From: a bacterium
Lineage (GTDB): Bacteria > Patescibacteriota > Saccharimonadia > Saccharimonadales > Saccharimonadaceae
Assembly (NCBI GenBank): GCA_020626475.1
Contig: JAHKZT010000008.1
Span: forward strand, 1-17,792
Direction: 5' to 3'
Length of the DNA: 17,792 nucleotides
Numbering within the stretch: position 1 is the first letter of the stretch; every line of letters begins with the position of its first letter. Under the pieces are notes generated by a model that saw nothing but the letters and a program-made list of their open reading frames with translations, did no database searches and was not told the origin of the DNA. The position numbers were made by a program, and so were the translations under genes. This document shows, one piece after another, positions 3,081-16,786 of this stretch.

Positions 3081-3848
3081 CTACGACAACTCTTTACGAA
3101 TCTTTTTCTCGAGATTACGCGCGAATTGACGTTCGAGTTTTGAAAACAGTTTTGGACCTAAAACTTTATAGCTAGTGAGGGTAATTTTATTCTTAATTGC
3201 CTCTGTGCGCGTATGCCAGGTTGAAGCATAGTGATGATAGGCAATGGTATTTTTCGTACGTTCGTCTTTACCCGTCATATAGTGCTTTGGGCTGAAATAT
3301 TCGCGCGAAAATACTGCAAGTTCATTTTTCTCGCCATAAGTACGAGTTTTGCCGTCTTGTTCGATTGGCCAAATGTCGCGAGCATACACTGCTACCGCGT
3401 GCACCGCTTTCAAAAAATCATTGGTATTGAGTTTCTTTTTTGGCTGAGCATGTTCGTAACGCTCGAGAACTTTTTTTGTCCACGGCGAATGCTTTTTTGC
3501 GCCGAATACTGCAGTAGAAAACCAATAGTTCGATTCCCAACCAATTACCGCATCATACTTCGTTAATTCGTCGAGAGATTTGAGCAATTCTACGTCAGTA
3601 TCAAGATAAAACCCGCCCTCAGTGTAGACGGCGTAGGCGCGCAAAACATCAGAAACGAGCGACCAACGCTTTTCTTTGACAGCTTGCTTTGCGAGTGGAT
3701 ATTTATCTAAATCGATATCTTTATCTGACCAGCATTTAATCTTGTAGTCTGGGTTTAGTTTTTTCCAACCCTCAAGATATTTCCTATCTTTTTCTGGCAT
3801 CTCTTTCGTGCCACACCAAACATAGTGAATTATTTTCGGAATAGCCAT
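3081..3848 (-). CDS. DXD-type sugar transferase (Gly_transf_sug / GT32-like, OCH1/capsular type)
   Basis: The 255-residue protein begins with the IPKIIHYVWCG signature (3-13) of the DXD sugar-transferase family, which moves a sugar from a nucleotide-sugar donor to a glycan or glycolipid. The metal-binding motif is YLDTD (81-85) after EGGF, and the WSLVSDVLRAYAVY block (62-75) before it is typical of the family. No transmembrane segment is evident, but a basic C-terminal tail (residues about 215-255) could associate with the membrane. The ATG directly follows the TAG of the GT4 gene (TAGATG), so translation is probably coupled and the two enzymes likely work on the same envelope glycan. Donor and acceptor cannot be read from the sequence. 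Confidence 0.87.
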   Translation of the reverse strand: MAIPKIIHYVWCGTKEMPEKDRKYLEGWKKLNPDYKIKCWSDKDIDLDKYPLAKQAVKEKRWSLVSDVLRAYAVYTEGGFYLDTDVELLKSLDELTKYDAVIGWESNYWFSTAVFGAKKHSPWTKKVLERYEHAQPKKKLNTNDFLKAVHAVAVYARDIWPIEQDGKTRTYGEKNELAVFSREYFSPKHYMTGKDERTKNTIAYHHYASTWHTRTEAIKNKITLTSYKVLGPKLFSKLERQFARNLEKKIRKELS

Positions 3849-5117
3849 CTATAATTCCCTTTCGCGATTATCTAGAACTTGGTTATATATTTCTTCCATG
3901 CGAGTGAGTGTGTGGCTAATATCATGCTTAGCGGCGCGCTTAACACTCTCGTCGGACATCTTCTTTTGGCGTTCTTTGTCGGTGAGAATTTTTACCAATC
4001 CATTTGCCACCGCATTAACATCGTCTGCTTTGCACAAGTAACCATTCTTGTTTGTCTTTACGAGCTCATGAATGGCGCCAGCATCAACGGCAACACACGG
4101 AAGACCGCTCGCCATTGCTTCCATTAGAACAATACTCTGCGTTTCGGTCTTGCTCGTAATCGCAAACACAGTACCGGTACGATATAGCTGCGGAAGATTG
4201 TCGCCAATCACGCGACCGAGAAAATGTGCGTGGTCGGAAATGCCGGCTTTGGCAATCTGTGCTTCCAATTTTGGACGAGCCGTACCGTCACCAACAACAA
4301 CTAGATGTGCATCGGGCACTTTTTTCTGCGCCGCAATAAATGCGTCCATTAAAATATCAAGTGATTTTTCTGGATCGACGCGACCGACATAAAGCACGAT
4401 AGGCTTTGTTTTTGGGATGCCGTATTCTTCGTAGATTTCTTTGTTTGCGCGACCCTTTGCGAAGCGCGAAAGATCGATACCATTACTAAGTGCCTCGACA
4501 GGAACTTTGAATGGTTTGCGCTTTTGCGGGATCAAATCGGCGACTGCCTGCTCGGTTGGCATCGTGGCATACTCGCTGCGCTTCAAAAAACTCACGAAAT
4601 ATTTATTCATCATGGAATTAATTGGCTTTTTGGCGACCCTCGGGAGCTTGAGCTGCTGCGTTAAATTATCTGGGTAAGCATGATCGGTCGAAACGAGCGG
4701 AATATCGCGCTTCTTTGCGTAGCGAAAAACCGCCAAAGCGACTGGACCAGGAGTCTGGTCGTGAATAATATCTGGTTGGAAATCGTCGAGAATTTTCTTA
4801 ATCGTAGAATAACAATTAAGACTGACATTTAGACCGTTCTTGTAATAAATTTTCGGCAATTTAACGCCAAGAAAATCTTTTGCTTCAGGAACTTTATTGA
4901 TCTGATCTGGATATACATGAACTTTGAAGGATTTTAGACGTACAATCGTAAAACCGTATTCCTCGTCTTTTTCGATATGAAATTCGCCATCAATACTTGG
5001 CGCAAGAACCATAACTTTGTGGCCGCGTTTTTTGAGTCCAGCAGCGAGATTGCGCGAGAAAACCGCCACGCCATTTATCATCGGGTAGTAGATATCAGTA
5101 GAAATAACAATTTTCAT
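3849..5117 (-). CDS. GT4-family glycosyltransferase (GT-B fold)
   Basis: The 422-residue protein is a retaining GT-B glycosyltransferase. The N-terminal acceptor domain opens with STDIYYPMINGV (6-17), typical of enzymes that glycosylate diacylglycerol or phosphatidylinositol, and has DQTPGP near 120. The C-terminal donor domain carries LYVGRVDPEKS near 240 and the E-x7-E signature in ETQSIVLMEAMASGLP near 320, used to hold the nucleotide-sugar. It most resembles glycolipid-forming GT4 enzymes, so a membrane glycolipid anchor is a fair guess, but phosphatidylinositol mannosyl transfer or polysaccharide assembly are alternatives. The start at 5117 is supported by a TATAAT seven bases upstream. 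The DXD transferase follows at once. No membrane segment is seen. Confidence 0.92.
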   Translation of the reverse strand: MKIVISTDIYYPMINGVAVFSRNLAAGLKKRGHKVMVLAPSIDGEFHIEKDEEYGFTIVRLKSFKVHVYPDQINKVPEAKDFLGVKLPKIYYKNGLNVSLNCYSTIKKILDDFQPDIIHDQTPGPVALAVFRYAKKRDIPLVSTDHAYPDNLTQQLKLPRVAKKPINSMMNKYFVSFLKRSEYATMPTEQAVADLIPQKRKPFKVPVEALSNGIDLSRFAKGRANKEIYEEYGIPKTKPIVLYVGRVDPEKSLDILMDAFIAAQKKVPDAHLVVVGDGTARPKLEAQIAKAGISDHAHFLGRVIGDNLPQLYRTGTVFAITSKTETQSIVLMEAMASGLPCVAVDAGAIHELVKTNKNGYLCKADDVNAVANGLVKILTDKERQKKMSDESVKRAAKHDISHTLTRMEEIYNQVLDNREREL

Positions 5118-6884: not shown

Positions 6885-7002
6885 GAAGCTATCTAATACA
6901 ACTTAGCGCACATTTAGAGTTACTTTGAGGAAATAGGTATCCTTAATTCTATTTTGCGCGTCTTATCAATCGTCTGAATCTATTGAAAGGAAGGTGATTT
7001 TT
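6885..7002 (+). promoter_or_regulatory. Long 5' leader and SD of the lipoprotein gene
   Basis: About 110 transcribed bases precede the gene. A strong SD (AAAGGAAGGTG, 6986-6996) sits six bases before the ATG at 7003 and selects it over the in-frame GTG at 6994, which lies inside the SD. I found no convincing hairpin, riboswitch core or leader peptide in the rest. Confidence 0.55.
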
Positions 7003-7890
7003 ATGACGATGAAGAGAATGTTCGGAATGCTTACTACCTCAAAGTGGATGAAGGTAATAAGTATCATAACTGTAGCTAGCATGCTGCTCACTTTGACAGC
7101 TTGCGGAGGAACAACAGCATCCCAGCAGGGTGCAGGAATGGTGACTGAAGAGAACGACACCGTAGAAAGAGTAACGGAAATTCCAAACGAGCCCGGCTAT
7201 GACATTGCTCCTGGAGCAGACATACCGGAAACTTCAACGGAAGAGCCTAGCTCGACAGAAGAATCACCATCGGATAATGACACGACCGAGAACCCGCCTA
7301 CGGGTGGAGCATATACGTATACCGTGTACGATGGCATTACTATAAATATGGACGTGAATATAGACGACTATATTATGACCAATGATAACGGTTCATTCTT
7401 CGAACTATACAAACTTATGTTCGATTATGACTGGCTGGCATCAGGGATTTATTCCGAAAAAGACGATAGTGAAAGTCTGTCATATGCACCTCGTTGGTAT
7501 TCAAGAGTTGACGGTGAGCTAATGACTATAATAGAACTCGCTAACAACGATAACCATCTAGTTTCAGTAAACGGAAGGGACGCAAAACAGTTTTATAGTT
7601 TGAGTATCACCTATCGTACGGAATCTGGAGGGACATATTATAATAGCGATGACAACGATATAATGCATTCTCCGCTTACCGTAGAGTTTAGCGAACGTCA
7701 AGGCGCTCTAGACTATAGGATTTTAGGAAATGGCGGCGCTATTTCGCGCGACGACATAGTTTTAATCTCCTACATCATCTGGACTTACTCAAATAATCCA
7801 GGCATCAATCCATTAATCCCATTTTTCGGGGATACATATAGAGATCACCTTGGAACGGTCGATACGCACACACGATATCTTATTCCCTAA
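7003..7890 (+). CDS. Secreted lipoprotein, unknown function, possible horizontal acquisition
   Basis: The 295-residue protein has a type II signal peptide: basic N-terminus, hydrophobic segment about residues 17-32, and a lipobox LTAC with the lipidated cysteine at 34. A linker at about 40-105 is rich in E, T, S, P and D. The remainder, from the YTYTVYDG block, is acidic and rich in N, D, Y and T with very few lysines, suggesting an extracellular globular domain that I do not recognise. The first ATG after the SD was taken as the start. Codon use differs from neighbours: AGA for Arg, GGA for Gly and ATA for Ile are frequent, whereas adjacent genes favour CGC/CGA, GGC/GGT and ATT/ATC. With its own promoter, SD and terminator it resembles a Clostridia-type lipoprotein cassette. 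Confidence 0.88.
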   Translation: MTMKRMFGMLTTSKWMKVISIITVASMLLTLTACGGTTASQQGAGMVTEENDTVERVTEIPNEPGYDIAPGADIPETSTEEPSSTEESPSDNDTTENPPTGGAYTYTVYDGITINMDVNIDDYIMTNDNGSFFELYKLMFDYDWLASGIYSEKDDSESLSYAPRWYSRVDGELMTIIELANNDNHLVSVNGRDAKQFYSLSITYRTESGGTYYNSDDNDIMHSPLTVEFSERQGALDYRILGNGGAISRDDIVLISYIIWTYSNNPGINPLIPFFGDTYRDHLGTVDTHTRYLIP

Positions 7891-7896
7891 CATGAG

Positions 7897-7925
7897 AAAG
7901 GTCGTCCACGTAGACGACCTTTTTT
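7897..7925 (+). terminator. Intrinsic terminator after the lipoprotein gene
   Basis: A perfect 10-bp stem AAAGGTCGTC (7897-7906) / GACGACCTTT (7913-7922) with a six-base loop and a T run through 7925. The stop of the convergent membrane-protein gene (7926-7924) lies in the T run. It may also act leftward, where the T run is shorter (TTTCT). Confidence 0.9.
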
Positions 7926-10900
7926 ATGCCGTAATATTATCCGTATAACGTCGTCCTAGATAATACTCTCTATTTGGAATAATAGTAATTGGAGATAACG
8001 TAATCAACTTATTTTCAATTATATCGACACTATAATCATCATCGGCTAATATTTGACTCTCAGCATATGGCGCACAAGAAGACGGATCGTAGTTGGCGAG
8101 CCAGTTAGATAGCTCGAGAACGGCTATTACGTTTTCTACAGTATCTTTTGTATAGCCAGAATAGCGCGCCAATAGCCCCTCGAAGGAATTATCTAGCGGA
8201 TGTTTTTCGTAATAACTAGAAACGAACTTTGTAACAGCCGATTCTTCTATAATACCCTCAGCCTCTGCTAAGCGTTGGTCTTCAATAAAGCGCTGGTATG
8301 TCTTTGCTTCTTCCCAGCCAATACTCTCGTCAAAACTATTATTGCCATTATTATTCCCAACAACGCACGATTCGCCACTAATCCATCCCATGTTCTCATA
8401 TTTTTGTTTATTTGAGGCGATATCAAAGCCATCTCCAACAATTGGGATAGCGCCGATAATTGAGCTCCCAACAGTCCCACCGGCATTACCTGCCTTATCA
8501 ACTTCGCCGGCAATATTCTGGTCGGCTACCCCCCATGGAGACGAACGCTGGCCGCAATATATAATATATTTTGCTAGTTTAGAATCTTCTTTTACGACCG
8601 GATTACCTTCATTATCCGCCTCCAGATTATCGTCATTTATGCTGTTCACAACTTCGGCTGGCTGAATATTCATAGTACTAGTATCCGTAATAACGTATGG
8701 ATTACAGAAAGCGTCCGCAATGCCGCCAATATCGGCCATATCTGGACAATATTTTTCCGTATTGTCCGAAGCTGCCTGCGCCTCAATGGCGGCTGAAACG
8801 GCCGACGTTTTCGGAGAAAGCGAGCTCACCGCACCGCCGATTACCGTACTCATCCCATTAATGGCTCCAGTTAATGAGGTCGCACTAGAGGCGAACGGTA
8901 TCATTTGATTTGCTAAGCTACCAAGGAAAGTATATTTAGAAGTAACATCGAACGGGCTACGCGTTTCTCGCTCATAGCGTGCGTTTTCCGCAACAACCCT
9001 ATCTTTCTCTTGCAGATACGCTATTAATCCACTCTTATTAGCCACGGCGCCACCAGAATATTGATGATTCTTCCCCATATACATATTCGCCCCCGATACA
9101 AGTGCATTGCCAAGATCTTCCCCTAGCACTTCGGTCGCAATTTTTCTTGTCAAAATTTTTGCAACGTATGGGACCAAGAAACTGACAGCGACGCCAATCG
9201 CTATACTAAACGCAGCCGAAAATGCCGCACTACTAGCTTCTTCGACGAAGAAGTCTACTAGACATCCAATGCCCGCCGTAAAGATACATGCTACAAGAAC
9301 GCCCGTATCTATCAATGCACCTGCCGCCGCTGCTCCCATTTTTGCCACCGTACAGTTGCGAAAAGCCGAGGCACTAACACTAAAACCATTCAGGACACTA
9401 GCAAGTCCGGTATACATATTTTTCAATGAAGTATTAATATTGAAGCTTTTAACACTTGGGTCATTGTTATCTACGGTCGTGCCGCCATAAATGGCACCAA
9501 TAGCATTAGCTTCCATAGCCGAACGACTTCGCGTAGTAGAATCAGTTTTGTCTGCCACATAATTATCATTACCTGTATCTTTTACGCTCTTAACTTCTTC
9601 GTAGGTCGATTCCGTTCTTTGAGTCAGCGATGTAGATAATTCATGGATTGGAGAACTTGCTCCGTCTCCAATTTGCGCCTTCTGAATCCCCTCAAATACA
9701 TTCGATGCAACTCCGATAATCTGAACCGCCTGATAAGCCGCCACTATGCCATATACTGCGCCAACGAAATCTTGTATTCCGCAATATATACCAGTAGCAA
9801 TCTGAGTAAAGCCTTTGATTTTCCCGACCGCATCAGCAACTCCCTTCAATTTAGTTTTTACCCCCTCAGTACTAGTAATTTTCCCGTTGCTATCCGTTTC
9901 AACGTCAGTTCTCGACAACGAAACATCTTCTTTTGTGCCAGAAGATACTTCTTCCTTATATACAGGATTGCCATTTGCATCTGTTTCACCGGTTTCAGTT
10001 CTCGTAGCCTCCGACGATCCAGCCTTACCTCCTGCAGAATCAGCATCAGAATCACCGGATATTGTCTTTTTCATATCAGCCATACCTTCTTCTTGTTTCT
10101 TTCCACTCTTGAATTCTCTCCACACTCCACGTTGGACCCCTAGTTTCTTTAAGAGACTATTCATACTGGAGTCGAACCATGCCCCAACAGCGCCGCGCCA
10201 AGTGCGCGCACCTTCCGTATAGCTAGTACGAAACTCTACATCGTTTTCAAAAGCATCATTAAAGTAGATGCGACCTTCGCCAGCCTGGCCAGGATCGGCT
10301 ACAATAGTCTGTATTTCACCATTAGAGCGCATATGCTTCATTACCGTGACGCCACCTTCTTCTTCGAAAGTAATGCCCGATTTTGCGAGCTTCTGCTTTT
10401 GACGACTACTCACTTTGAATTCATCCGCTTTGAAATAATGAGCTTTTATACAATCTTTAACTTTATTGCTTTCTTTCGCAGCCTGCCATCTTAGAAACTT
10501 CTTCGAACGCATATTTTGAGACACCGAAATAGAATCGAAATTTTCCTGAAATTGCGAAATTAAGCTGAATGGCATAGCCATCTGGCCAAAGAAGCTAGCG
10601 CCGCCGAAGCCGAGACAGAGAGCGAGAATCGCCATGAGTGGGCCGGCCTTTTTGAGCTTACCCTTACCCTTACCAATTTTGCCGGATTTTATATCTTTAA
10701 TGCCTTGGACGGCATTTTTAAACTTACCGGCAGTAGACTGGTCGTCGGATTCAACGTTATTTTCTTTCTCACCGAGAGAGGCTTTTTTGTCGCCGCCTTT
10801 ACCATTAGTATTCGGTTTTTTACTGGCGTCATCTTCACCTTTTTTGAGCAAGCCCCATTTCTTGTTGCCATTTTCGTCAGTTTTTTGGCCAAACTTGCCA

Positions 10901-11073
10901 AAACCGGCAGTATTTTTACCATCATCGCCAACAGGTTTGCCATTTATGCGGGTCTGGGCGTTATTGCGAATATAATCTTGCGCATCCTGAGAATAGCGAC
11001 TAAGGTCGTCACCAAAATTCGAATCACCAGAATCGGTATAGTCACCGGAATAGTCTTCATCGCCCAACGCCAT
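7924..11073 (-). CDS. Large multi-pass membrane protein, unknown function
   Basis: A 1049-residue protein from the ATG at 11073. A further in-frame ATG at 11082 would add three residues, but it lies one base after TATAAT and so is probably not transcribed. Residues 1-145 are cytoplasm-like, low complexity, rich in G, K, D and N. A hydrophobic segment follows at about 144-167, then a long extracytoplasmic region with a disordered stretch near 325-415 (S, T, D, E, G). Hydrophobic segments recur at about 422-461, 580-609 and 615-641. The C-terminal 350 residues have several cysteines (YCPDM, FCNPY, YCGQ, ESCVV, SCAPY), suggesting disulfides outside the cell. A block near 680-720 (SGGAVANKSG, then SPFDVTSKYTFLGSL) looks like a conserved core. 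A VirB6/TrbL-like channel role is speculative. Confidence 0.82.
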   Translation of the reverse strand: MALGDEDYSGDYTDSGDSNFGDDLSRYSQDAQDYIRNNAQTRINGKPVGDDGKNTAGFGKFGQKTDENGNKKWGLLKKGEDDASKKPNTNGKGGDKKASLGEKENNVESDDQSTAGKFKNAVQGIKDIKSGKIGKGKGKLKKAGPLMAILALCLGFGGASFFGQMAMPFSLISQFQENFDSISVSQNMRSKKFLRWQAAKESNKVKDCIKAHYFKADEFKVSSRQKQKLAKSGITFEEEGGVTVMKHMRSNGEIQTIVADPGQAGEGRIYFNDAFENDVEFRTSYTEGARTWRGAVGAWFDSSMNSLLKKLGVQRGVWREFKSGKKQEEGMADMKKTISGDSDADSAGGKAGSSEATRTETGETDANGNPVYKEEVSSGTKEDVSLSRTDVETDSNGKITSTEGVKTKLKGVADAVGKIKGFTQIATGIYCGIQDFVGAVYGIVAAYQAVQIIGVASNVFEGIQKAQIGDGASSPIHELSTSLTQRTESTYEEVKSVKDTGNDNYVADKTDSTTRSRSAMEANAIGAIYGGTTVDNNDPSVKSFNINTSLKNMYTGLASVLNGFSVSASAFRNCTVAKMGAAAAGALIDTGVLVACIFTAGIGCLVDFFVEEASSAAFSAAFSIAIGVAVSFLVPYVAKILTRKIATEVLGEDLGNALVSGANMYMGKNHQYSGGAVANKSGLIAYLQEKDRVVAENARYERETRSPFDVTSKYTFLGSLANQMIPFASSATSLTGAINGMSTVIGGAVSSLSPKTSAVSAAIEAQAASDNTEKYCPDMADIGGIADAFCNPYVITDTSTMNIQPAEVVNSINDDNLEADNEGNPVVKEDSKLAKYIIYCGQRSSPWGVADQNIAGEVDKAGNAGGTVGSSIIGAIPIVGDGFDIASNKQKYENMGWISGESCVVGNNNGNNSFDESIGWEEAKTYQRFIEDQRLAEAEGIIEESAVTKFVSSYYEKHPLDNSFEGLLARYSGYTKDTVENVIAVLELSNWLANYDPSSCAPYAESQILADDDYSVDIIENKLITLSPITIIPNREYYLGRRYTDNITA

Positions 11074-11083
11074 ATTACCCATA

Positions 11084-11162: not shown

Positions 11163-11759
11163 ATGGTCAAAAAACAAAAACGAAACAAAAATACATCAAA
11201 AAATATTATTATCTTTATTCTTTCCGTCTTATTAATTGCGGCACTCACTTTTGGCGTGATAGTTTTTATTAAGCAAATTAAATCTGACAATTCTAAAAGC
11301 AATCAGGACAATGCATTAGATCAAAATACTGCCGATACTGAACTAAAGACCGAAGAGGACTTTAAGGATGAGGATAAAGTCGCCAAGTCTAGTAATGACG
11401 CCAAAGACCGCATGGAGGCAGACGAAAAAGTAAAGTCTCAGACTAAGCAAGACGAAAGCGGCAAAAATATCGCAGAACCAGTAATAAGCTTCGTATCTGA
11501 AGAAGATGGCAAAATTGCTGCCGGTGGCGCAATTTATAATATCAACGAGTCAGGCGGCACTTGTACCTATATCTTCTCAAAAGGCGACACAAATATTACT
11601 GCAAGTGCAGGAATACTACCAAATCCAAGCTATATCTCATGCGAAACGGTTCGCGTCGACAAAGCAAAATTCACTACGGGGACTTGGCAAGTGAAAATAC
11701 AATACAAATCTAATCTATCGGAGGGCGAGAGTGAAACACAAAGCATTACGATTCAGTAG
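11163..11759 (+). CDS. Membrane-anchored small protein with a C-terminal beta-rich domain
   Basis: The 198-residue protein starts at ATG 11163, ten bases after the SD AGGAG; upstream in-frame codons are ahead of the predicted transcription start. A very basic N-terminus (KKQKRNKN) precedes one membrane helix at about residues 14-36, giving an N-in, C-out topology. A charged, disordered linker (about 37-105) leads to a C-terminal domain of about 90 residues with alternating beta-type pattern and two cysteines, ending in SITIQ. An Ig-like fold is a plausible guess. The gene overlaps the next by 29 bases, so the two are very likely one operon, and this protein may anchor or assist the secreted hydrolase/lectin. 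Confidence 0.82.
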   Translation: MVKKQKRNKNTSKNIIIFILSVLLIAALTFGVIVFIKQIKSDNSKSNQDNALDQNTADTELKTEEDFKDEDKVAKSSNDAKDRMEADEKVKSQTKQDESGKNIAEPVISFVSEEDGKIAAGGAIYNINESGGTCTYIFSKGDTNITASAGILPNPSYISCETVRVDKAKFTTGTWQVKIQYKSNLSEGESETQSITIQ

Positions 11760-14079
11760 CATCCTAGCAGGCATAGCCTTCTTAGCTGTGTTTTTCGGTG
11801 CCGCTATTTACAATACGCCGACATCCGAAGCTATTTCGGCGCTAGATTTTAAAGCTGGAAATATTATTGATGATGGCGTTTTTTACAACAAGAACACCAT
11901 GACCGTGGCCGAAATTCAGGCGCACCTAAATCGCTACATGCCAGCTTGCGATACTTGGGGCACTGGCGCTGTTGGATCTGGGCGCTATATTAACGGCAAA
12001 GCCGTTCCGGCTAGCACGACTCGCGCAGAATACGCACGCCAAATGCGCGCCGCCGGAAACACGCGCTATCATGAGCCGCCATATGTCTGCGTTCAGAATT
12101 ATTACGAAAACCCTACCACCCATGAAACCTTATTTGAGACCAAGAACGTTATTAAAGACGGCATGATTTCTGCGGCCCAAATTATCTATAATGCGTCACA
12201 AAAATACGGCATCAATCCTCAGGTCTTGCTCGTTCTATTGAAGAAAGAGAGCTATGTCTGGGGAGACAACTGGCCGCTCAAAAATGAGTACAACACGGTC
12301 ATGGGTTACGCATGCCCAGACACTGCGCCTTGCGATTCAAAATATTTCGGTTTTTATAACCAGGTCGAAATGGCAGCATGGCAGCTCAACTACTACAAGG
12401 AACATATTTATAGCTATAACTATCGCCCATACGCAACGAATTCAATCCTCTACTCTCCAACTACCTCTTGCGGCAGAAAGAGCGTCTACCTAGAAAACCT
12501 CGCCACTACTTCCCTCTACATCTACACTCCATATACACCGAACGATGCCGCTTTGCGCAATTATCCTGGCACCGCAACTTGCGGTTCATATGGCAACAGA
12601 AACTTCTTCATGTACTTTAGTGAATGGTTCGGCGATACGCACGGATTCAATGCCGCCAAGAGAACAATCCCGGATTATGATTACAAAATTTTATCGACAG
12701 ACAAAACGAAATCATTGCATATATCCGGAGATAGCGATAAGGCCGGCTCATCGATTGTAGCCGATAACTTAAGCAACGGCAGCAACATATTCAGTTTTAG
12801 AAAAAATACAGACAATAGCTATACTATTATTAACTCTTTTTCGAAGCTCGCACTAGATATTCCGTACGCAAATGCAACCGTTGGTACAAAAATTCAACAA
12901 TGGACAAACAACGGCTCGAATGCTCAAAAATGGTATATATATTCTGACGGTTTTAGCAACTATTATATTTCTAGTGTTTTAGCTCCGTCATACGTTCTAT
13001 CGATCTCCAAAAACAATGACATTGTCCTAGATGTATATGGCAGTCAAAATAGCACTCCGCTTAAACTGATTCCTGTCATAAAAGAGAAAATCCCCAATAA
13101 TAACTACACTATTGAAAGTCTACTCAAAAAAGATCTGCTTCTAGATTTATATCATAATAACCCTAATGAAAATACAAATATCGATGTAAACCTTGCAAAT
13201 AATACCACAGCTCAAACTTTCAGCATATCATTAGATAGTGACTCTAGTTCGTATATTATCAAAAGTAATCACGGCACAATATTAAGCATCGACAGCGAAA
13301 AGCCGCAGAATGGCAGTAATATCGTAGTTTCCTCAGATAAGAAGCTTTGCTCTCAACGTTTCTTAATTCTAAAAAATAATTCTAATAACAGCCACGTTTT
13401 TTATTCTCTTTGCGATCTTTCGTATGCAATCGATATTGTTAATGCAAGCACTGCAAACCAGACAAATGTTCAATTGTGGAATGCTAATGGATCTAATGCG
13501 CAAGCATGGCTATTGAATATCGACAAAAGCGGCGAAGAATCCACTGTCTCAGATCCCGACAATACGCCAACCACCAAAGCGAGCGAAGATAGTGTTCAAG
13601 CTCTAGATAATACTTCGCCCACTACGCCAGAATCTCCTCTAGTCAAGGACGGCAACTATATTATTCATTCTGCGATTAAAGATAATTACGTAATCGATGT
13701 CGCCTATGCCGGCAAAATGAACGGTACAAACATAAACACTTGGTCAAAGAATAGTACTGCAGCTCAAATTTTTAATATCAAATATAACTCACGGAATGAT
13801 ACCTATCAAATAATTAATCCAAACTCTGGTCGCGCGATAGATTTAAGCGGAGCAACGACACGTAATTCATCAAATATACATATTTGGTCAATTAATGATA
13901 CTTGCGCACAATATTGGAAAATTAATAAAACTAATAATGCACATTACAGGATTAGTAGCTCGTGCGATGAATCATTCGTCCTCGATGTTGCATGGGCTGG
14001 TTCTTCCAATGGAACAAATATACAATTATATAAGAGCAATAACACTCTAGCGCAGGAATGGTGGTTTGAAGCAATGTAG
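11731..14079 (+). CDS. Secreted lysozyme-like protein with three ricin-type lectin domains
   Basis: The 782-residue protein starts at GTG 11731, six bases after the SD GGAGGG and inside the preceding gene; this start is needed to include the signal peptide (basic KHKALR, hydrophobic 11-27, possible cleavage near residue 34). Residues about 40-305 form a lysozyme-like region: GINPQVLLVLLKKES (160-174) with candidate catalytic Glu173, then MGYACPDTAPCDSKYFGF (191-208) and AAWQLNYY (215-222). From memory, this layout is found in actinobacterial secreted proteins. Three beta-trefoil (ricin B, CBM13-like) domains follow at about 314-448, 456-597 and 640-782, with QxW-type repeats such as IQQWTNNGSNAQKW (388-401) and VQLWNANGSNAQAW (580-593). 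A Thr/Ser/Pro-rich linker separates domains two and three. Likely role: binding and perhaps cleaving a cell wall, its own or a host's. Activity is inferred. Confidence 0.9.
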   Translation: MKHKALRFSSILAGIAFLAVFFGAAIYNTPTSEAISALDFKAGNIIDDGVFYNKNTMTVAEIQAHLNRYMPACDTWGTGAVGSGRYINGKAVPASTTRAEYARQMRAAGNTRYHEPPYVCVQNYYENPTTHETLFETKNVIKDGMISAAQIIYNASQKYGINPQVLLVLLKKESYVWGDNWPLKNEYNTVMGYACPDTAPCDSKYFGFYNQVEMAAWQLNYYKEHIYSYNYRPYATNSILYSPTTSCGRKSVYLENLATTSLYIYTPYTPNDAALRNYPGTATCGSYGNRNFFMYFSEWFGDTHGFNAAKRTIPDYDYKILSTDKTKSLHISGDSDKAGSSIVADNLSNGSNIFSFRKNTDNSYTIINSFSKLALDIPYANATVGTKIQQWTNNGSNAQKWYIYSDGFSNYYISSVLAPSYVLSISKNNDIVLDVYGSQNSTPLKLIPVIKEKIPNNNYTIESLLKKDLLLDLYHNNPNENTNIDVNLANNTTAQTFSISLDSDSSSYIIKSNHGTILSIDSEKPQNGSNIVVSSDKKLCSQRFLILKNNSNNSHVFYSLCDLSYAIDIVNASTANQTNVQLWNANGSNAQAWLLNIDKSGEESTVSDPDNTPTTKASEDSVQALDNTSPTTPESPLVKDGNYIIHSAIKDNYVIDVAYAGKMNGTNINTWSKNSTAAQIFNIKYNSRNDTYQIINPNSGRAIDLSGATTRNSSNIHIWSINDTCAQYWKINKTNNAHYRISSSCDESFVLDVAWAGSSNGTNIQLYKSNNTLAQEWWFEAM

Positions 14080-14130: not shown

Positions 14131-15231
14131 ATGCAATTAACTGTTTTCGCCAGCGTTCTTCTATATCTTGCCGCATTCTCATCGGCATGTCTTTTTGCGT
14201 ATTTAGGCGAAAAAAAGAATCGCAAAACATATTTTTTATTAGCTATTTTAATTCCAACGCTTATTGCCGGTTTGCGCTATAGCACTGGCACAGACACGCT
14301 AACATATACTGCTCTCTATAATGAAGTAGGCGGAGAGTCATTTAGTACCTCGTTACAACGCATTACAAGCGGAAGTCTAGAGCCATTCGTTGTCGTTATT
14401 TCTTTTATCGGAAATGCGCTTCATTTACCGACTTCTTTTATGTTTTTGTCTTTCGCAGTTATTACGGCGAGCTTTCTTTTTCTTTCAACTAGACTACTCA
14501 GCGAAAAACACGCATGGCTAATATACGGGATGCTACTTTTCATAGTATTTCCAGAAAGCCTCAATATGATGCGTCAGCTTGCCGCAAATAGCGTACAGGT
14601 TTTCACATTAGCGTATATATTTAAAAGACAAAATGAGCATCATCGTACTAGAGTTATATCAGCTACACTGTTGCTATTATTCTCGATCTCTTTACATTAC
14701 TCTTCCCTATTGTTGCTTCCCGTCTTTGTCATGCCATTCATCATTAAACATATTCGAGGGCGAACACTTAGTCTATTATTATGTTTGCTAAATATCGCGT
14801 TTGTCGCAGCATTTCCTTTCTTGTTGGATTTTGTAGTAAAACTAGGCATATTATCCCCCCGCCATTACGCTACTCTTATGGAGCTTGAAGGATCGATCGT
14901 TAATATTAAATTCGTCGCATCAGCAATACTTGCCGCCATCCTGATTGCAAATTACTTACGCAGGCGCAAAAATACCGATAAGCAATATGCGCTCCTAATG
15001 CTGCTAGGCGTTGCTTATTCCGCGATCGGGTTCTATTCCGGCTATATTGGGCGTTTGGCAATGTTCTTCTGGATTTTAATTATTCCATATCTTGGAAAAA
15101 TGATTTGCCAGTTGTTTGAAAAAGAAAGCCACCGCGTGCTTGTCTGCAGCGTGGTGGCAATATCTTATTTCTTGCTGTATTTCTGCGTTCTTGGTTTTAA
15201 CGCAATCATACCATACGATTTTATTATCTAA
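14131..15231 (+). CDS. EpsG/Wzy-like polysaccharide polymerase
   Basis: The 366-residue protein is almost entirely hydrophobic, with about ten predicted membrane segments. The sequence GLRYSTGTDTLTYTALY (47-63) matches the arginine-rich, G-T-D-x-x-x-Y loop typical of EpsG-family proteins, which act like Wzy to polymerise repeat units of exopolysaccharide or capsule outside the membrane. LRR or RQL contexts (MMRQLAANSVQVF near 148-160) fit the family too. A leaderless start at 14131 is predicted from TAAAAT seven bases upstream. It stops exactly where the convergent Wzz-like gene stops. With Wzz and GalE next door, a surface-glycan role is likely; no flippase or priming transferase lies in this window. 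Confidence 0.82.
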   Translation: MQLTVFASVLLYLAAFSSACLFAYLGEKKNRKTYFLLAILIPTLIAGLRYSTGTDTLTYTALYNEVGGESFSTSLQRITSGSLEPFVVVISFIGNALHLPTSFMFLSFAVITASFLFLSTRLLSEKHAWLIYGMLLFIVFPESLNMMRQLAANSVQVFTLAYIFKRQNEHHRTRVISATLLLLFSISLHYSSLLLLPVFVMPFIIKHIRGRTLSLLLCLLNIAFVAAFPFLLDFVVKLGILSPRHYATLMELEGSIVNIKFVASAILAAILIANYLRRRKNTDKQYALLMLLGVAYSAIGFYSGYIGRLAMFFWILIIPYLGKMICQLFEKESHRVLVCSVVAISYFLLYFCVLGFNAIIPYDFII

Positions 15232-15780
15232 TTATTTTTCGGCTTTGTAATCAAACTTAATAAAAACTACAACTAGTGCGAGAGCAAGTCCAGCAAAGGC
15301 CGCAACGGCAGTCGAAATAATGCGCTTTTTAGTCGTCATTGTCTGAGTCGATTCAGTCGCGCGTGCTAGGATCGTGATACGATAATCTTCATAGTCATCG
15401 AAAGCAGTAGCGATTGCTTCGCCTGCATTATCCATAACCATGTTGGCAGTTTTGATTGCTTCGTCGGAGCTACTGGCAGTAGCGACTACTTCAAAAACAC
15501 CGAATGGCTTTTCTACTACAGAATATTCGCTCAATTCACCTTTAATTAATTCTCCGCTTTCTAGCAAGCTACCAATCTGCGCATAAGGAGAAGTAATGGA
15601 GCCAGTATTAACGATTGAATTATAGACAGAAAACTTTGCGGAAGCTTCGTAGTTTGTTGGCTTAGTGAAGGCATAGTATGCGCCACCACCGGCACCAATA
15701 ACAAAGAAGATTGCAAGAAGAAGCCAAGATTTCTTGAGCTCTTTAAGATAATTTTTGAAGGTAAACTGAGGTTTAGACAT
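15232..15780 (-). CDS. Wzz/YveK-like polysaccharide chain-length determinant (no kinase domain)
   Basis: The 182-residue protein has two membrane helices, at about residues 18-37 and 153-176, around an extracytoplasmic domain, as in Wzz/CapA/YveK modulators of capsule and exopolysaccharide length. The first helix is preceded by basic residues (KELKKS) and followed by YYAFTKPTNYEASAKF, where the Y-A-F-T-x-P-x-x-Y-E-A context is typical of the family. There is no tyrosine-kinase domain; Gram-positive systems often keep it on a separate protein. The ATG lies inside galE (8-base overlap), so it is translated from the galE transcript. It probably partners with the polymerase encoded opposite. Confidence 0.83.
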   Translation of the reverse strand: MSKPQFTFKNYLKELKKSWLLLAIFFVIGAGGGAYYAFTKPTNYEASAKFSVYNSIVNTGSITSPYAQIGSLLESGELIKGELSEYSVVEKPFGVFEVVATASSSDEAIKTANMVMDNAGEAIATAFDDYEDYRITILARATESTQTMTTKKRIISTAVAAFAGLALALVVVFIKFDYKAEK

Positions 15781-16786
15781 TAGATTCCTTTGCTTTGTTT
15801 AGATAATTTATTGTATCACGCATTGCGTCATCAATAGTTAATTCCGTTTGCCAGCCTAGCTCGGCTTTTGCTTTGCTCGGGTCTGCATACATCTCAGCAA
15901 GATCGCCGGCGCGACGCGCGGTGAACTCATGCGGAAGCTCACGACCGCTTGCTTTTTCGAAAGCAGCAATCATTTCTTTGACGCTAGTTGCTTTGCCTGT
16001 ACCAAGATTATAAATACTTACGCCTGGCTTCATATGCTCCAGCGCCGCAACGTGACCTTTGGCGAGGTCGACGACATGAATATAATCACGACGGCAAGTT
16101 CCATCCTCGGTCGGATAATCGTCGCCATAGACCTGAAGTTTTTCAATACGGCCATCAGCGACGCGCATAATAATTGGCATTAGATTATTAGGAATGCCAT
16201 TTGGATCTTCACCAATAAGGCCGGACTCGTGAGCGCCGATAGGATTAAAATAACGCAAGAGCGTAGCATTGAAATCCGGGTATGCAACCACATAATCTTT
16301 AATAATCTCTTCAATAAAGTATTTAGTGCGGCCATAAGGATTTGTAATAGCACCGCCAGTTTTCATAGTCTCCACGCAAGCTGGAGTATCTTGCTCGCCA
16401 TAAACGGTTGCAGAAGATGAGAAGATTAGCTCTTTGACGCCATATTTACCCATGACGTCCAACAGATTTAGGGTACTATCGAGATTGTTATGGTAGTAAA
16501 GAATTGGCTTCTCTACAGATTCGCCGACGGCTTTGAGTCCAGCAAAATGGATTACTGCATCATAGTTGCCCTGCTGGAAGATTTCGTCGAGCTTCTCAGC
16601 ATCAAGAAGGTCGGCCTCGAAAAATTTCGGGCGTTTGCCGGTAATTTTCTCGATTTGGTTAAGAACGGTAATTTTGCTATTAAAAAGGTTGTCGATAATT
16701 TCGACTTCGTATCCCCTATTGATCAATTCGACGACAGTATGGGAGCCAATATAGCCCGTGCCGCCAGTTGCTAAAATCTTCTTCAT
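15773..16786 (-). CDS. galE: UDP-glucose 4-epimerase
   Basis: The 337-residue protein is a short-chain dehydrogenase-type epimerase that interconverts UDP-glucose and UDP-galactose, supplying galactose for surface glycans. The NAD-binding GGTGYIGSH stretch is at 8-16; FAGLKAVGES at 81-90; the catalytic set is Ser125 in SSSATVYG, Tyr151 and Lys155 in PYGRTK. RRDYIHVVDLA near 228-238 and YNLGTG near 259-264 are also diagnostic. UDP-GlcNAc activity cannot be excluded. The ATG at 16786 lies seven bases after TATAAT with no SD. Its 3' end overlaps the Wzz-like gene by eight bases, forming a two-gene operon. Confidence 0.96.
   Translation of the reverse strand: MKKILATGGTGYIGSHTVVELINRGYEVEIIDNLFNSKITVLNQIEKITGKRPKFFEADLLDAEKLDEIFQQGNYDAVIHFAGLKAVGESVEKPILYYHNNLDSTLNLLDVMGKYGVKELIFSSSATVYGEQDTPACVETMKTGGAITNPYGRTKYFIEEIIKDYVVAYPDFNATLLRYFNPIGAHESGLIGEDPNGIPNNLMPIIMRVADGRIEKLQVYGDDYPTEDGTCRRDYIHVVDLAKGHVAALEHMKPGVSIYNLGTGKATSVKEMIAAFEKASGRELPHEFTARRAGDLAEMYADPSKAKAELGWQTELTIDDAMRDTINYLNKAKESNV

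Follow-up and report, generated by a model that had tools for sequence, protein, structure and literature searches.

In a 17,792-nucleotide stretch of a Saccharimonadaceae contig (JAHKZT010000008.1, assembly GCA_020626475.1; hereafter the window), we find the gene for a modular protein that is probably a wall-glycan hydrolase, engaged in remodelling of the cell's own wall or polysaccharide and tied to its own surface polysaccharide. The gene and the parts of its product are as follows.

11731..14079, + strand: gene for the 782-aa modular protein, an intact ORF with GTG start, TAG stop, and GGAGG just 5' of the GTG
11731..11838, + strand: signal-peptide-like region, about residues 1-36, by eye (basic start, hydrophobic stretch, then SEA-IS)
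11839..12654, + strand: N-terminal lysozyme-like domain, residues 37-308
12247..12249, + strand: E173, proposed general acid at the end of a helix (model residues 127-137), from conservation, profile alignments, and the DSSP helix
12361..12363, + strand: Q211 in GFYNQ, invariant (123/123 sequences)
12517..12531, + strand: YIYTP (Y263, Y265, T266, P267), proposed to correspond to the YNxG loop of lytic transglycosylases
12664..14076, + strand: three ricin-type beta-trefoils, about residues 312-455, 456-600, and 640-782 (Pfam PF14200, PF00652; Q-x-W/F)

The first-pass annotation had described this ORF as encoding a secreted, lysozyme-like enzyme fused to ricin lectin domains, and much of that description holds. 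The ORF is intact over the whole interval, and the quoted motifs are present in the N-terminal domain: INPQVLLVLLKKES, whose Glu is residue 173, and the block GYACPDTAPCDSK...NQVEMAAWQ. The C-terminal half matches two models of ricin-type beta-trefoil lectins (CBM13), RicinB_lectin_2 (PF14200; E 4.2e-41, five stretches, 140 bits against a cut-off of 25.6) and Ricin_B_lectin (PF00652; E 2.8e-16, 60.3 bits against a cut-off of 29). The number and borders of the trefoils were set by eye from the sequence; nine Q-x-W/F triplets, at residues 389, 399, 495, 542, 581, 591, 679, 727, and 775, seem by eye to fit three trefoils in which some repeats are degenerate, with a Ser/Thr-rich linker ahead of the third. 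Secretion is likewise plausible from the signal-like start, as read by eye. The source genome, an 808-kb draft in 265 contigs that is 82% complete, holds a single copy of the gene.

The N-terminal domain appears to constitute an unnamed, class-wide family that lacks a Pfam or NCBIfam model. Searches of these two collections with the window's protein and with 29 aligned members gave nothing above cut-off, PDB sequence searches with the single protein and with a profile gave no match to the domain, and the best PHROGs matches were at E 0.01 (an endolysin family) and 0.64 (a tail fibre). A description of the domain was not found in the parts consulted of open-licence PMC papers. Invariant columns run through the alignment of 29 sequences from the window's phylum and through that of 81 sequences including Actinobacteria (L022 was left out of alignment A1 for its unknown residues), and conservation, judged from these alignments, is far beyond chance. 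The window's domain as sole query found matches in 105/286 genomes of the phylum; the profile of 81 sequences found the domain in 169/195 genomes of the class (Saccharibacteria, going by the nearest named relatives), mostly with one match each, and in 7/246 genomes of the phylum to which Agromyces soli belongs, the A. soli genome counted. Of 10 genomes sampled in the window's genus, 9 (counting the window's) have the domain. Among the best 80 matches, the named relatives belong to Saccharibacteria or Actinobacteria. Most of the actinobacterial ones are Microbacteriaceae, such as Agromyces, Leucobacter, and Cryobacterium; Demequina and Isoptericola, among others, are also represented. The occurrence of the motif in actinobacterial proteins, stated in the first-pass annotation, is thus correct. 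Four pairs of loci (L009/L070, L010/L065, L011/L052, and L032/L173) each represent one contig seen twice, to judge from identical domains on contigs of equal length. In one genome of the class, G094, the family occurs at two distinct loci separated by about 45 kb (L125 5123-7168, - strand, and L024); one has the partner gene described below upstream, and the frame of the other locus has an in-frame TAG.

The AF2 model of the domain (pLDDT 93.5) has a predicted fold like that of the lysozyme superfamily, with the invariant Glu at the catalytic position, in keeping with the lysozyme-like enzyme first proposed. Of the 50 VIA-align rows listed, almost all are, by title, either glycosidases acting on peptidoglycan or chitin or lysins of phages; the values were 9.2 for LytB, 8.5 for AtlE, 7.3 for PlyC, 6.6 for MltF, 6.3 for MltE, and 6.1 for g-type lysozyme. 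As in that superfamily, the Glu closes a core helix, the one at model residues 127-137. Profile comparison by hhalign matched the domain to SLT (E 0.00029) and GH73 (E 0.0012), both across the catalytic-Glu helix, as compared to a best E of 0.12 among 51 unrelated profiles, and set E173 against the E in the ES motif of both families, which we take to be their catalytic Glu. Sequence models place the domain in neither family. The GH73 model PF01832 was above cut-off in none (1/29 members matched at E 0.064, the window's domain not at all), and the GH23/SLT model PF01464 was listed for 0/29 members at E 1, in a scan where HMMER filters drop most matches above 0.1. Compared to the GH73 endo-beta-N-acetylglucosaminidases (LytB, AtlE; PF01832), the family has its own CPD..C, GFxxQ, and YxYTP motifs. 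With GH23/SLT lytic transglycosylases and g-type lysozymes it appears to have the superfamily fold in common and its glutamate helix aligns, yet it is unmatched by PF01464 and has GFxxQ and YxYTP instead of GLMQ and YNxG, whose places they presumably occupy. The predicted fold class is one already known; the family itself is unnamed. We propose that this divergent glycosidase would use E173 as general acid on a peptidoglycan-type glycan; it may be an N-acetylglucosaminidase, muramidase, or lytic transglycosylase. That the lysozyme-like part is instead an inert scaffold, and the protein purely an adhesin or polysaccharide-binding anchor, is highly improbable. The binding part is indeed large and variable, and enzyme activity is a prediction, but E173 is Glu in 123/123 sequences, as invariant as Q211, whereas cysteines of the domain are missing in some distant members of the same set. 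The Y, Y, T, and P of YIYTP are each found in 122/123 sequences, with one gap.

The enzyme gene forms a two-gene unit with a partner gene.

11163..11759, + strand: partner gene for a 198-aa membrane-anchored protein, overlapping the enzyme gene by 29 bases

The partner protein has a helix at 12-38 and a fibronectin-III-like domain at about 100-198 with invariant C134 and C160. Its gene lies directly upstream of the enzyme gene in 47/48 testable loci, by a position test on stop-to-stop frames that required the neighbour's end to fall within -200 to +400 bases. In Actinobacteria, the position test finds the partner in 4/30 loci; clustering likewise gives 4, but counts two others, L083 and L109. 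One locus from a Nomurabacteria-titled record (L069) has neither the partner gene nor recognized neighbours.

Around this unit lie genes for surface polysaccharide, which in the window are the following.

14131..15231, + strand: EpsG-family membrane protein (polysaccharide polymerase-like), next downstream of the enzyme gene (PF14897, E 1e-31)
15232..15780, - strand: Wzz-type chain-length determinant protein (PF02706, E 3.7e-8)
15773..16786, - strand: nucleotide-sugar epimerase (PF01370, E 3.6e-56)
3081-3848 and 3849-5117, - strand: two glycosyltransferase genes (PF04488, E 6.5e-14; PF00534, E 5.9e-41)

This setting recurs across the class. We compared 22 long Saccharibacterial loci (Patescibacterial loci of 20 kb or more) to 20 control regions of 7 genomes, a slightly asymmetric comparison in that the controls were scored by BLAST matches and the targets by clusters made from the target loci themselves. 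Glycosyltransferases occur in 21/22 long loci versus 1/20 controls, a Wzm-like permease in 16/22 versus 0/20, a Wzt-like ATPase in 16/22 versus 3/20, a nucleotidyltransferase in 16/22 versus 1/20, and an epimerase in 13/22 versus 0/20. Clustering of neighbours over all loci, divided by record title (some read only 'bacterium'), gave glycosyltransferases in 47/51 Patescibacterial loci, the window counted, and in 26/30 actinobacterial loci within 10 kb; the glycosyltransferase cluster is a single-linkage one that may hold several families. For the other clusters, the Patescibacterial and actinobacterial counts were 28 versus 7 (Wzt-like ATPase), 25 versus 4 (permease), 27 versus 2 (nucleotidyltransferase), and 24 versus 11 (epimerase), under names that Pfam confirmed on single examples. 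Pfam also identified UDP-galactopyranose mutase and GlfT2 in the loci of Agromyces fucosus and a Pseudoclavibacter. In another member of the window's genus (G244), the partner gene, the enzyme gene, and three glycosyltransferase-looking genes share a strand, with ABC ATPase and permease genes next on the opposite strand, all by eye. The window's genome gave no match to Wzt_C. It has Mur-ligase domain matches, two of them over cut-off, which suggest that the cell makes its own peptidoglycan, though the Mur-ligase family is not exclusive to that pathway. According to part of PMC10633639 (2023), an EPS locus of a cultivated Saccharibacterium includes one essential gene and two with a growth effect.

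Two other window genes were noted. Positions 7924-11082 (- strand) encode a 1052-aa protein, hydrophilic at its N-terminus and with hydrophobic segments, that has no Pfam, NCBIfam, or PHROGs family above cut-off; among the compared loci, a homologue clustered only in L032, and in L122, from the window's genus, a large ORF occupies the corresponding place. Positions 6994-7890 (+ strand) encode a lipoprotein-like protein of 298 aa (LTACGG) that includes a low-complexity stretch and has no Pfam or NCBIfam family above cut-off.

Such a neighbourhood could also suit a glycan ligase, in which the lysozyme-like domain would cut a wall strand and join the exported polysaccharide to it by transglycosylation, the task that LCP ligases perform in other bacteria. 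Export and polymerase genes nearby, the membrane-anchored partner, and the ability of some lysozyme-superfamily enzymes to transglycosylate all agree with this idea; fusion of the domain with an M15 peptidase in one case and with a PcsB-like coiled coil in another suggests ordinary wall hydrolysis, and we consider a ligase quite improbable. The M15 fusion is encoded on a viral contig (L112 4860-6227, with the domain and then the peptidase, E 1.7e-17) and looks like an endolysin in build. A search of viral contigs for the domain yielded two weak relatives. A query with the Agromyces soli domain found no match among phages and plasmids. The PcsB-like match belongs to a distant relative, L119 (E 6.6e-6; 26.3 bits, just below the cut-off of 27), the one scanned of three relatives, L119, L120, and L121; these three, from 1.8-Mb genomes of Agromyces soli's phylum, have a divergent domain after a long coiled-coil-like stretch.

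The binding tail is exchangeable, and the ricin-type form is only one of several: other relatives have B_lectin, DUF5648, CWB2, LGFP, or N_BRCA1_IG, and CWB2, LGFP, and SLH repeats are found fused to the domain. We compared tails in eight further members of the window's genus (nine loci, of which L032 and L173 are one contig). In the catalytic domain, these members show 66-85% identity to the window's protein and 63-99% to each other, or 63-85% across the genus once one near-identical pair is set aside. BLAST linkage joins the tails of G658, G570, and G573 to the window's ricin-type tail, and those of G602, G696, G572, and G597 into another group, LGFP-like by eye; the G244 tail matches no other in the set, so that within this one genus an LGFP-like or a third tail takes the place of the ricin type. 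The window and G602 have catalytic domains 85% identical and tails without a BLAST match at E 0.001, as do G658 and G696 with catalytic domains 83% identical. These two close pairs with unlike tails require at least two tail exchanges. Phage endolysins vary in a similar manner.

The tails bear on whether the enzyme faces its own cell or a host. Known Saccharibacteria are tiny bacteria living on other bacteria, and in the first-pass annotation the protein was a candidate factor for binding or entering the host wall. On a host-directed reading, the trefoils would attach the epibiont to host wall glycans, the enzyme would breach that wall so that nutrients can be taken up or the cell can enter, and swapped tails would track changes of host. 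Consistent with this, essential envelope proteins with glycan-binding domains in Southlakia epibionticum are read as host-directed in the portion of PMC10633639 on which we draw (two essential genes with consecutive numbers, SEML1_0890 with fibronectin III and SEML1_0891 with VCBS, might conceivably, by domain name, be the two-gene unit described here), and lytic transglycosylases that compromise the host envelope are proposed for Patescibacteria in passages of PMC11665869. Those enzymes and ours are alike predicted wall-active enzymes of epibionts. The comparison with PMC11665869 is general, as the passages do not name the enzymes meant; PMC12102498, in its relevant part, deals with VirB1-type SLT enzymes that belong to type IV secretion, whereas our family gives no match to the SLT model and is located amid polysaccharide genes. 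Tail exchange agrees with either a changing host or a changing polysaccharide of the cell's own. Self-directed envelope work is favoured because the gene lies in an apparent surface-polysaccharide locus of the cell itself, because it is widely present in the class, usually in one copy per genome, and because the actinobacterial relatives also lie amid glycosyltransferase genes (Pfam-checked in two loci). The actinobacterial genera concerned are free-living, and these relatives are not known to be epibionts. The host wall is a hypothetical target, and a host-directed role seems to us possible, if rather unlikely.

The first-pass annotation had also allowed for ancestry by transfer from a host. 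Neither the trees nor the spread of the domain (169/195 in the class versus 7/246 in the actinobacterial phylum) support this, and in none of four trees, all with query-biased sampling, did Saccharibacterial sequences nest within Actinobacteria. The best tree leans the other way, towards a possible transfer from Saccharibacteria to Micrococcales, an order in the phylum of known Saccharibacteria hosts. Actinobacteria appeared nested within Saccharibacteria in a first quick tree; in a careful tree of 67 of 109 sequences, a mixed clade (100/97) contains the Micrococcales as a single clade (95/97), and Saccharibacteria form one clade in 0% of 200 bootstrap trees. Yet, AU tests do not reject Saccharibacteria as one clade, either for the careful tree (p 0.289) or for a quick tree that left out L060, L010, L011, L009, L086, L020, and L023 (p 0.782, the constrained tree having even higher likelihood). 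Sampling is biased to the query's vicinity, the search for named relatives having kept the best 80 matches; when distant rows were added, the outgroup failed to form a single clade and long branches joined one another. Candidatus Lumbricidophila eiseniae (L060 10001-10702), presumably a Microbacteriaceae MAG, encodes the partner as well as an enzyme with lectin repeats, and its sequence clusters with Saccharibacteria and away from the remaining Actinobacteria; it may represent a separate transfer or a mis-binned contig.

In the self-directed role that we prefer, the secreted enzyme would be kept at the cell surface by its three trefoils gripping a glycan, and may interact with the adjacent membrane-anchored fibronectin-III-like protein co-encoded in the surface-polysaccharide locus. 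It would cut or remodel the cell's own wall glycan during export or attachment of polysaccharide, and the binding tail may be exchanged in step with the changing polysaccharide. A broader scheme is speculative and, in our estimate, unlikely as a whole: a class-wide two-gene envelope module would join or tailor surface polysaccharide to the wall, its exchangeable tail picking out a glycan of the cell or of the host, and Micrococcales would have acquired the enzyme from Saccharibacteria.

These results bear on surface construction and host attachment in episymbiotic Saccharibacteria, questions that remain open, and many of their surface proteins are unnamed. A probable wall-glycan enzyme and its partner gene can now be pinpointed, the enzyme having a likely active-site residue and a binding tail that varies, and a family for which Pfam and NCBIfam offer no model gains a likely fold and activity. 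Whether the enzyme is aimed at self or host thereby becomes testable in genetically tractable Saccharibacteria.
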